Part shown: positions 28,968 through 31,631 of the stretch, in pieces
How the letters are laid out: the number at the start of each line of letters is the position of its first letter
How positions within the stretch are numbered: position 1 is the stretch's first letter
NCBI GenBank assembly: GCA_937936275.1
Contig: CALHCJ010000134.1
Coordinates: 1 to 34,963, forward strand
Source: an uncultured Flavobacteriaceae bacterium
Lineage (GTDB): Bacteria; Bacteroidota; Bacteroidia; Flavobacteriales; Flavobacteriaceae
Direction: 5' to 3'
Length of the DNA: 34,963 bases
Made by a program: the position numbers and the translations under genes
The notes under the pieces: generated by a model
Databases searched by the model: none
The model's input: the letters and a program-made list of their open reading frames with translations, nothing else
Told to the model about the DNA's origin: nothing

Positions 28968-29420
28968 ATGAAATTGAAGGTCCCACCGGCATTGGTTTTA
29001 ATTGTATTCGGAGTATTGATGTATGTGCTAGCTCGATTGCTACCCGTTGGGTATTTTGATTTCTTCGGAAGAAGTTATTTGATGTATGCGTTGCTTATAA
29101 TATCAGGATGCATCGGTTTTATCGCGCTTTTTCAATTTTTCAGTACAAAAACAACAATTGACCCGACTACGCCTTCAAAAGCAACAAAACTTGTTACTTC
29201 TGGATTGTATCAATATTCTAGAAACCCGATGTATTTAGGTATGCTATTAGTGCTTTTAGCGTGGGGAATATGGCTGGGAAATGCGTTCAATGTTTTGCTT
29301 GCTGCGGGATTTGTGGCGTATATGAATAGATTTCAAATTATTCCAGAGGAAGCTGCCCTGCTGCAACTGTTTGATAAAGAATATAAACAATATTGTACGC
29401 TCGTTCGAAGATGGTTTTAA
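28968..29420 (+). CDS. isoprenylcysteine carboxyl methyltransferase (ICMT)/PEMT-like membrane protein
   Basis: 150 aa, multiple TMs; LVTSGLYQYSRNPMYLGMLLVLLAWGIWLGN ... IIPEEAALLQLFDKEYKQYCTLVRRW. Confidence 0.88.
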   Translation: MKLKVPPALVLIVFGVLMYVLARLLPVGYFDFFGRSYLMYALLIISGCIGFIALFQFFSTKTTIDPTTPSKATKLVTSGLYQYSRNPMYLGMLLVLLAWGIWLGNAFNVLLAAGFVAYMNRFQIIPEEAALLQLFDKEYKQYCTLVRRWF

Positions 29421-29428
29421 TATATAAA

Positions 29429-29532
29429 CGAATATGCTAATAGTGAGTACTTATTAGTATATTCGCTTATAATACTAAATTATTAGCTAATTAGCTTATA
29501 TATTCATATATTAGCGTTTTAGCTTATATATT
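29429..29532. repeat. Cluster of inverted and direct repeats (putative operator array) between the ICMT-like and SatD-like genes
   Basis: IR CGAATATGCTAATA (29429-29442) / TATTAGTATATTCG (29452-29465), one mismatch; direct repeat TTAGCTTATATATT at 29491-29504 and 29519-29532; IR GCTTATATAT (29494-29503) / ATATATTAGC (29506-29515), one mismatch; GCTAATTAGC palindrome. Confidence 0.75.
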
Positions 29533-30144
29533 ATGATAGCAATAATCACTGGTGATATCATTAATTCTGAGGAACACAACGCTTCTGAATGGGTTGGTGC
29601 ACTTAAAAAACAATTTTCAAAATGGGGTGAATCTCCTTCTGATTGGGAGATTTATAGAGGTGATGAGTTTCAATTAAAACTATCACCAAAGAAAGCCTTG
29701 TGGGCCGCATTAGAGATCAAAGCCATTATTCGTTGTGTCAAAGATTTAGATGTTCGAATGGCGATTGGCATTGGCTCTGAGACTTTCAAGGGTGTTAGTG
29801 TGAGCGAATCAAACGGTAGCGCTTATCAACGTTCAGGGCGCATTTTTGAGACCTTAAAAGAAGATAAATTAAATCTTGCTATCGCCACAGGGAATACAAA
29901 AGAAGATGAAAGTTTAAACTTAATGCTTAAACTCGCCTTAGATTTTATGGATGAATGGACTTCCGTATCTGCTGAGATTGTCGCGATTGCTTTAGAAAAT
30001 CCGAAGTTAACGCAGCAAGAAATAGCCTCACAATTACATATTCAACAATCAGCTGTGAGTCAACGTCAGAAGAGGGCAAGGCTTGATCTCGTTATGGAAC
30101 TTCTAGCGTACTATCCTAAAACCGTAAAACGAATGAAGCCATGA
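29533..30144 (+). CDS. SatD-like family protein: N-terminal cyclase-like domain plus C-terminal HTH
   Basis: 203 aa; MIAIITGDIINS ... WEIYRGDEFQLKLSPKKALWAALEIKAII ... DVRMAIGIGS ... AYQRSGRIFETL, then LTQQEIASQLHIQQSAVSQRQKRAR (HTH). Confidence 0.8.
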   Translation: MIAIITGDIINSEEHNASEWVGALKKQFSKWGESPSDWEIYRGDEFQLKLSPKKALWAALEIKAIIRCVKDLDVRMAIGIGSETFKGVSVSESNGSAYQRSGRIFETLKEDKLNLAIATGNTKEDESLNLMLKLALDFMDEWTSVSAEIVAIALENPKLTQQEIASQLHIQQSAVSQRQKRARLDLVMELLAYYPKTVKRMKP

Positions 30145-30839
30145 TCTTATTTACGAAGCTGTTACTAGCGCATTTGATTGGTGATTTTTTACTTCAGCCT
30201 AAGAAGTGGGTAAAAGATAAAGAGAAAAAGAAAGCTGCTTCAAAATATCTCTACCTTCATGTGCTACTACATTTTGCGGTTACTATGATCTTACTTTGGG
30301 ATTTTAGTTTTTGGAAAATCGCATTGTTTATTTTGATATCACATTATTTAATTGATCTATCAAAATTGTATGCCAACTCCTTGTTTAAGAACGAGAGCAT
30401 TCCCTTTTTTGTAGATCAAGTACTCCATATAATTGTTTTATATTGTTGTGCATACTTCGACAATTTATGGGAACACACCTCTTCTTTGTTTAAACAGTTA
30501 GATTGGACTTTAGTCACAGCAATTGTATTCGTAAGCTTTCCAGCGGCCATTATTATGGGAAAATTGTTAGAACCCATGTCTGAGAAATTAGAAATGGACC
30601 ACAAGTCATTGCCAAATGCTGGCAAATATATCGGAATCATAGAACGTCTTTTTGTACTCCTCTTTATTATCCTTGACCATTGGGAAGCTATTGGTCTTTT
30701 AATTACTGCTAAATCAGTTTTTCGTTTTAATGATTTAAAAGAAAGTAATAGTAGAAAGCTGACGGAGTATATTTTAATAGGCACTTTGATCAGTTTCGGA
30801 ATTGCTATTATTACAGGAGTCATTTACATTTCTTTATAA
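30141..30839 (+). CDS. DUF3307-like polytopic membrane protein
   Basis: 232 aa; HLIGDFLLQ, HVLLH, SHYLIDLSK, DQVLHI, NAGKYIGIIERLFVLLFII; start overlaps the upstream stop (ATGA). Confidence 0.82.
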   Translation: MILFTKLLLAHLIGDFLLQPKKWVKDKEKKKAASKYLYLHVLLHFAVTMILLWDFSFWKIALFILISHYLIDLSKLYANSLFKNESIPFFVDQVLHIIVLYCCAYFDNLWEHTSSLFKQLDWTLVTAIVFVSFPAAIIMGKLLEPMSEKLEMDHKSLPNAGKYIGIIERLFVLLFIILDHWEAIGLLITAKSVFRFNDLKESNSRKLTEYILIGTLISFGIAIITGVIYISL

Positions 30840-30851
30840 CCGCAAACAATC

Positions 30852-31631
30852 ATGAAGCTTTATTGTATTCTCTTTATTCTAGTGGCATCAAGTTTTTCTG
30901 CCTATGCACAAACTAAGTACTTCAATTCGTTTGACGATACGAAAATTGCTTACACTGATGAAGGTAACGGTACACCCATACTGCTTATTCACGGATTTAT
31001 TAACACTAAAGAATCTTGGGATAAAACCGCTTTGAAGAAAGATTTATTGGCCAAAGGTTATCGTGTTATTGCTCCTGACCTTCGTGGCAACGGGGACTCT
31101 GATAAGCCTCACGATGATGATGCCTATTCACAAGATGCTGAAGTGATTGATTTAATGTTTCTAATGGTAGAATTAAAACTAAGCAAATACTGGGCTGTCG
31201 GATATTCTAGAGGAAGTATCATCTTAGCAAAATTGTTAACAAAAGACAAAAGGCTTAAAAAAGCTGTGCTAGGCGGAATGGGTATTGATTTTACGAATCG
31301 AAATTGGGACAGACGTATAATGTTTAGAGATGCTTTTAATGGAAAAATAATAGAAGAGACCAAAGGTGCAGTTGAATATGCAAAGTCTATCGACGCTGAT
31401 TTAAAAAGTCTTTACTTACAGCAAAAACATCAATCAGTCACCACGAAAAGGCAGTTGCAATATGTAAAAGCAAAAGTGCTTGTTATAGCAGGTGACGAGG
31501 ATACAGACAATGGAGACCCTGAAGCACTACATCAAGCGATACCCAAAAGTAAATTTGAGATAGTTCAAGGCGATCATAACGGCACTTACAAAACAGAAGC
31601 TTTTTCAAAAGAGATACTATCCTTTTTTTAA
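30852..31631 (+). CDS. secreted alpha/beta hydrolase
   Basis: 259 aa; signal peptide; LLIHGFINTKESWD, DLRGNGDSDKP, nucleophile elbow GYSRGS, GDEDTDN and GDHNGT for Asp/His of the triad. Confidence 0.9.
   Translation: MKLYCILFILVASSFSAYAQTKYFNSFDDTKIAYTDEGNGTPILLIHGFINTKESWDKTALKKDLLAKGYRVIAPDLRGNGDSDKPHDDDAYSQDAEVIDLMFLMVELKLSKYWAVGYSRGSIILAKLLTKDKRLKKAVLGGMGIDFTNRNWDRRIMFRDAFNGKIIEETKGAVEYAKSIDADLKSLYLQQKHQSVTTKRQLQYVKAKVLVIAGDEDTDNGDPEALHQAIPKSKFEIVQGDHNGTYKTEAFSKEILSFF

Follow-up and report, generated by a model that had tools for sequence, protein, structure and literature searches.

The satD gene lies on the forward strand at positions 29533–30144 of the window (the whole stretch of 34,963 nucleotides that was analysed), starts with ATG and encodes a protein of 203 residues, in which an AlphaFold2 model places a palm domain in front of a C-terminal helix-turn-helix (HTH). 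The protein belongs to the SatD family, PF16264, with an E-value of 1.3e-10 and a score of 41.7 bits (cut-off 29) over residues 2–186. It is followed on the same strand by the gene for a membrane protein of 232 residues (30141–30839), which begins in a 4-bp overlap with the satD stop, and is preceded by a spacer, from the stop of the upstream gene at 29420 to the satD start at 29533, that is filled by four 20-bp dyads (29423–29528). On either side of this unit Pfam identifies an isoprenylcysteine/phospholipid methyltransferase-like protein (28968–29420) and an alpha/beta hydrolase (30852–31631). The source genome is a member of the Flavobacteriaceae near Maribacter, with a single satD copy in its assembly; among the matches listed, the nearest named relative of the protein is from Maribacter algarum (82%), and other Maribacter as well as Zobellia species are also close.

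At least 561 SatD relatives were found in a genome scan. The Pfam model detects the family in 80 of 396 sampled Bacteroidota genomes, about one fifth, and it evidently misses members, since clear SatD genes are present in several genomes in which it reports none. A plasmid search returned three SatD records, on haloarchaeal and proteobacterial (Sphingomonas) plasmids. An origin in phages or mobile defence was considered and dropped because the IMG/VR scans and the phage search contained no SatD relatives. In PADLOC-DB, which covers anti-phage defence, SatD has no match and the membrane protein only a weak one (0.019). The name SatD comes from the secretion and acid tolerance operon of Streptococcus mutans, and in the literature the protein is labelled an acid-tolerance or DNA-binding protein; the papers found, among which subscription journals are thinly covered, contain no published fold, operator, activity or partner for it.

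The pairing of satD with the membrane protein gene is a general feature of the family. This gene starts within 30 bp 3' of satD in at least 150 of 160 loci, most commonly with a 4-bp overlap of the ATGA type, as in the window. The converse also holds: SatD is encoded directly upstream in 23 of 26 DUF3307 loci that were chosen solely for a DUF3307 gene with no Pfam-detected SatD at that place. The haloarchaeal plasmid carries the same satD–partner pair, and on the Sphingomonas plasmid satD is followed by the gene for a membrane protein of 138 residues. In the window the partner matches DUF3307 (PF11750; E-value 1.6e-28) and its model is all-helical (pLDDT 90). The DUF3307 domain makes up the N-terminal half (30147–30491, forward strand), with His11, Asp15, Gln19, His40, His68, Asp72, Asp92, Gln93 and His96 conserved, a His/Asp pattern that may resemble that of membrane metal hydrolases. 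Outside the Pfam match there is a C-terminal core (30609–30833, forward strand) of about 100 residues, in which Gly165, Glu168, Arg169, Lys191, Arg195, Glu209, Tyr210, Gly214 and Ser218 are almost invariant. The core is found in all forms of the partner, while the short partners of 106–138 residues (L046–L060 and L162) consist of it alone, lack DUF3307 and match no Pfam family above the cut-off. The part common to all SatD partners is then this unnamed C-terminal core and not the Pfam domain. We do not claim a fold for the partner, since a Foldseek search with its model gave no credible solved relative.

The initial annotation had read SatD as a compact class III nucleotide-cyclase-like domain fused to an HTH, pointing to a series of motifs that are all present in the translation in the order given: ITGDIINS at residues 5–12 (with Asp8), IYRGDEFQLKLSPKKALWAALEIKAII at 40–66 (with Gly43-Asp44), DVRMAIGIGS at 73–82 and SAYQRSGRIFETL at 96–108. 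The resemblance goes beyond chance, because Asp8, Ser12, Asp44, Gly43 and Arg75 are conserved in 45–49 of 49 sequence clusters. The proposed fold was borne out by structure prediction and by profile comparison. The AlphaFold2 model, built from 61 relatives, has a mean pLDDT of 93.2 and a pTM of 0.90, and its elements follow the order E-H-E-E-H-E-H-E before an all-helical part that contains the HTH. The palm, or nucleotidyl-cyclase-like, domain comprises residues 1–122 (29533–29898, forward strand), with strands at 2–10, 38–41, 45–50, 73–81 and 115–118 and helices at 21–28, 52–67 and 96–111. Nearly all of the best PDB matches of the model in Foldseek are palm nucleotidyl cyclases or related proteins, so that the palm, on the presence of which the initial annotation had staked its reading, is indeed found in the model. 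The cyclases among them include mycobacterial adenylyl cyclases, adenylyl cyclase Ma1120, light-regulated cyclases and uridylate cyclase, and the other palms include the GGDEF protein DosC, GTP cyclohydrolase III MJ0145, Cas10 of the Csm and Cmr complexes and the Panoptes mCpol. The probabilities are mostly 0.9–1.0, the E-values 1.6e-3 to 5e-2 over about 110–150 aligned columns and the TM-scores about 0.4; the last two are modest because the shared palm accounts for only about 120 of the 203 residues. Against viral models there was one GGDEF-type match, the rest being noise.

In profile–profile comparison (hhalign) the SatD palm reached a probability of 90% against Bacteroidota class III cyclases (E-value 1.5e-6 for one comparison) and 82% against GGDEF domains (E-value 1e-5), with the controls, the SatD HTH and DUF3307, at 0.1–2.9%; the GGDEF and class III profiles themselves reach only 1.4% with each other. 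The class III alignment places Asp8 on the first metal aspartate and Gly43-Asp44 on the GD hairpin, just as had been suggested from the motifs. This link is detectable only by the model and profile–profile comparison: PDB sequence searches with the single protein or with a profile gave HTH relatives and noise only. Likewise, the class III family PF00211 does not match the window protein at E-values up to 1 and is missing from the 25 families listed for 20 SatD members, and GGDEF (PF00990) has no Pfam match in the window SatD, which a GGDEF search of its own genome missed too. In that assembly, which is about 85% complete, neither PF00990 nor PF00211 has any match. As predicted by the model and the profile comparison, the N-terminal half of SatD has the palm fold of nucleotidyl cyclases.

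Conservation within the palm was counted over 216 SatD proteins grouped into 49 clusters below 50% identity. Asp8 at the end of strand 1 (codon 29554–29556, forward strand), the first predicted metal ligand, and Ser12 are invariant (49/49). Asp44, the second predicted ligand, which sits with Gly43 in the beta hairpin (codons 29659–29664, forward strand), is present in 48 clusters, the exception being a truncated fragment (L211). Further conserved positions are Gly43 (47/49), Gly81 (46/49), Arg75 (45/49), Gln47 and Trp142 (43/49 each). The expectation of the initial annotation that the acidic residues of ITGD and RGDEF would be kept across homologues therefore holds for the two aspartates, but not for Glu45, which is serine in 27 of the 49 clusters; where the diguanylate cyclase signature reads GG(D/E)EF, the window protein has RGDEF and the family as a whole xGD(S/E). 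Similarly, the SGR segment that had been noticed is present in the window protein, but its Arg103 occurs in only 18 clusters (glutamate in 13), and residues 97–103 contain no conserved asparagine, so the class III transition-state Asn/Arg has no family-wide counterpart in the 49 clusters. The near-invariance of Asp8 and Asp44 argues that the putative two-metal site is under strong constraint, and the overall pattern is compatible with binding of a metal-nucleoside triphosphate, with or without chemistry. Since neither the second acidic residue of GGDEF nor the class III transition-state arginine is conserved, SatD may or may not be a catalyst.

Compared with known palm proteins, SatD shares with class III cyclases the fold, the first-strand aspartate, the GD hairpin and the (V/I)R.(A/G)IG. 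strand, all in the same order, but differs from them in being missed by their Pfam model, in lacking a family-wide transition-state arginine and in its fusion to an HTH. With GGDEF diguanylate cyclases it has in common the fold and the xGDEF-like hairpin, although the first glycine and the second acidic residue of GGDEF are not kept in the family. The mCpol of Panoptes (OptS, 9pd0) and GTP cyclohydrolase III (2qv6), both found by Foldseek, are likewise small palm proteins with a two-metal site; however, they have no HTH, and SatD has no match in the defence library. Transcription factors of the PucR/CdaR type carry, in front of an HTH, a GGDEF-like palm that is degenerate and lacks the metal site, whereas SatD, with the same domain order, keeps both metal aspartates.

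The HTH itself spans residues 159–183 (30007–30081, forward strand), where Sigma70_r4 and HTH_24 score above the Pfam cut-offs, confirming the fusion; the model has helices at 161–168 and 172–181, with the recognition helix at about 172–181. A set of candidate operators for it lies directly in front of the gene. The dyads, to which no strand is assigned, follow the palindromic pattern TATWAGC-N6-GCTWATA: dyad 1 (TATAAACGAATATGCTAATA, 29423–29442, one mismatch) starts 2 bp after the upstream stop, dyad 2 (TATTAGTATATTCGCTTATA, 29452–29471, one mismatch) follows at a distance of 29 bp, dyad 3 (TATTAGCTAATTAGCTTATA, 29481–29500, perfect) after another 29 bp, and dyad 4 (TATTAGCGTTTTAGCTTATA, 29509–29528, perfect) after 28 bp, ending 4 bp before the satD start codon. 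No perfect site other than dyads 3 and 4 occurs in the 3.38 Mb assembly, and looser matches elsewhere are no commoner than those to a reversed-pattern control. Congeners also have few perfect sites, and where a genome has several they always form one cluster. In 91% of 216 satD loci, a three-copy array with a period of 28–29 bp outscored every one of 20 dinucleotide shuffles (median z 9.1 across the loci). A scan of periods from 22 to 36 in satD upstream regions gave scores of 49 for 28 bp and 39 for 29 bp, while all other periods, and control regions too, scored about 30. Dyads specific to their locus occur 2.49 times per satD upstream region, whereas 810 kb of other sequence from these loci contain a single one. 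Candidate arrays also stand 5' of satD on the haloarchaeal plasmid (L161) and on the Sphingomonas plasmid (L162). These two loci lie outside Bacteroidota, and their arrays have the same period with quite different half-sites.

If SatD is the protein that binds these arrays, its recognition helix and the half-sites should be matched to each other. The half-sites differ between genera yet stay palindromic (GCTTATA, CGTAATA, AGGAATA, GCAGATA, CCCGATA and others), and among about 200 SatD columns residue 177, a glutamine in the window (codon 30061–30063, forward strand), shares the most mutual information with offsets 5 and 7 of the half-site, followed by residues 174 and 173. This ranking, which did not depend on any predefined classes, was obtained with 146 loci and again with 43 clusters below 60% identity, and fades at 13 clusters. 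With residue and site classes that were defined after inspection of the data, a basic residue 177 (Lys/Arg) pairs with G at offset 5 (8 of 9 clusters against 1 of 32, p = 8e-7), an acidic one (Glu/Asp) with G at offset 7, that is, with C on the other strand (p = 2.5e-5), and glutamine with CT/AG (p = 1.4e-5), each over 41 clusters. The pairing is chemically sensible. Nor is it tied to one background. In the family to which the window protein belongs, L061 (SEG, GCAGATA) and L063 (SQG, ACTAATA) have one HTH background in common, and L064 (SER, CCCGATA) has another in common with the window (SQR, GCTTATA). On a palm-domain tree of 210 branches, 11 of 17 changes of residue class, in the same post hoc classes, fall on a branch with a change of site class (hypergeometric p = 2e-10). 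Given that the letters of the half-site covary with residue 177, which is part of the recognition helix, these sequence comparisons make SatD almost certainly the protein that binds the predicted operator array in front of its gene.

How might such a protein work? Alongside what was computed directly, namely the family, the fold, the conserved aspartates, the operon, the arrays and the covariation of HTH and operator, we propose that SatD is quite probably a nucleotide-responsive autoregulator of the satD–membrane protein operon, acting through a tandem operator array. The HTH would bind, we infer as dimers, an array of two to five palindromic operators of 20 bp spaced 28–29 bp apart, with one SatD dimer on each dyad; binding is probably cooperative, since the period is fixed. 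Occupied to within 4 bp of the start codon, the array would then control satD and its partner, most likely by repression, which we favour over activation because the dyads take up the spacer as far as the start codon; a promoter was not found in the window. In the palm, Asp8 and Asp44 most likely serve to bind a nucleoside triphosphate with its metal, or a product derived from that nucleotide; such binding would change the affinity of SatD for DNA or its oligomeric state. The suggestion of the initial annotation that the cyclase-like domain controls the attached DNA-binding domain is plausible in this light; the tandem operators and the tie to the downstream membrane protein go beyond that annotation, which had noticed neither. 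Streptococci carry satD, although not universally, and those strains of Streptococcus pyogenes that were tested cannot do without the gene, yet 29% of genomes lack it (PMC11323703). This combination would fit a guardian repressor of a harmful partner, although it is not proof of one.

The strongest competitor to autoregulation by a nucleotide is that SatD is primarily an enzyme, either a compact nucleotidyl cyclase or one that modifies GTP or makes oligonucleotides, with the messenger acting on the partner and autoregulation merely setting the dose. In its favour are the near-invariant pair of metal aspartates, the presence of active cyclases, GTP cyclohydrolase III and mCpol among the structural neighbours, the obligate pairing with a membrane protein, which resembles messenger–effector pairs, and the lack of any GGDEF or class III match in the assembly itself, at about 85% completeness. 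However, the position of the second acidic residue of GGDEF is serine in most clusters and the SGR arginine is not conserved, the ubiquity of the HTH and the operator array speaks in the first place for transcription, and PADLOC links SatD to no defence system, so we regard this explanation as rather unlikely. At the other extreme SatD could be a repressor blind to any ligand, with the palm serving only for dimerisation or as a structural scaffold. The metal site could be purely structural, given that the palms of the PucR/CdaR proteins, the closest known factors with a palm and an HTH, are degenerate, and the weak Foldseek match to 3onq, a regulator of polyketide synthase expression (probability 0.47), may represent a relative of that kind. 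But the two aspartates are on surface loops and, together with Ser12 and the GD hairpin, are near-absolute across clusters down to 15–20% identity, which makes a mere scaffold improbable. It is very unlikely that a different regulator occupies the dyads, or that they are a repeat in RNA or DNA with no link to SatD: the covariation is statistical and a co-inherited second regulator could in principle produce it, but the covarying residues are those of SatD's own recognition helix among some 200 columns of equal ancestry, residue and site changes co-occur on branches of the tree, and the arrays stand at satD and essentially nowhere else.

With SatD taken as a nucleotide-responsive autoregulator, the system becomes testable. 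Its fold and metal site are predicted, as is an operator that can be read through a code at residue 177; the target is dedicated and confined to one locus, and the partner is almost invariant, with a core domain that has no Pfam name. The operator arrays, present upstream of about 91% of 216 satD genes, are new here, as is the covariation between HTH and operator; we found nothing mechanistic on record. If the palm binds nucleoside triphosphates, SatD would be a family of transcription factors that reads the nucleotide state through an intact, rather than degenerate, cyclase-like site. One may go further and imagine SatD and its partner as a widespread, unrecognised nucleotide-signalling module, in which a catalytically competent palm makes or consumes a nucleotide, its own occupancy gates the array and either the nucleotide or SatD controls the membrane protein; we consider this a speculative extension with a low chance of being correct.

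A minor observation concerns transcription starts. In 28 of the 216 loci a Bacteroidota -7 box (TAnnTTTG) ends 4 bp before the start codon. No such box is seen near the array in the window, and for this reason we do not claim leaderless transcription there. In one genus group (L014–L027) the box reads TATATTTG and, ending at this same distance of 4 bp from the start codon, shares bases with the last dyad, an arrangement which suggests a near-leaderless satD transcript in these genomes.
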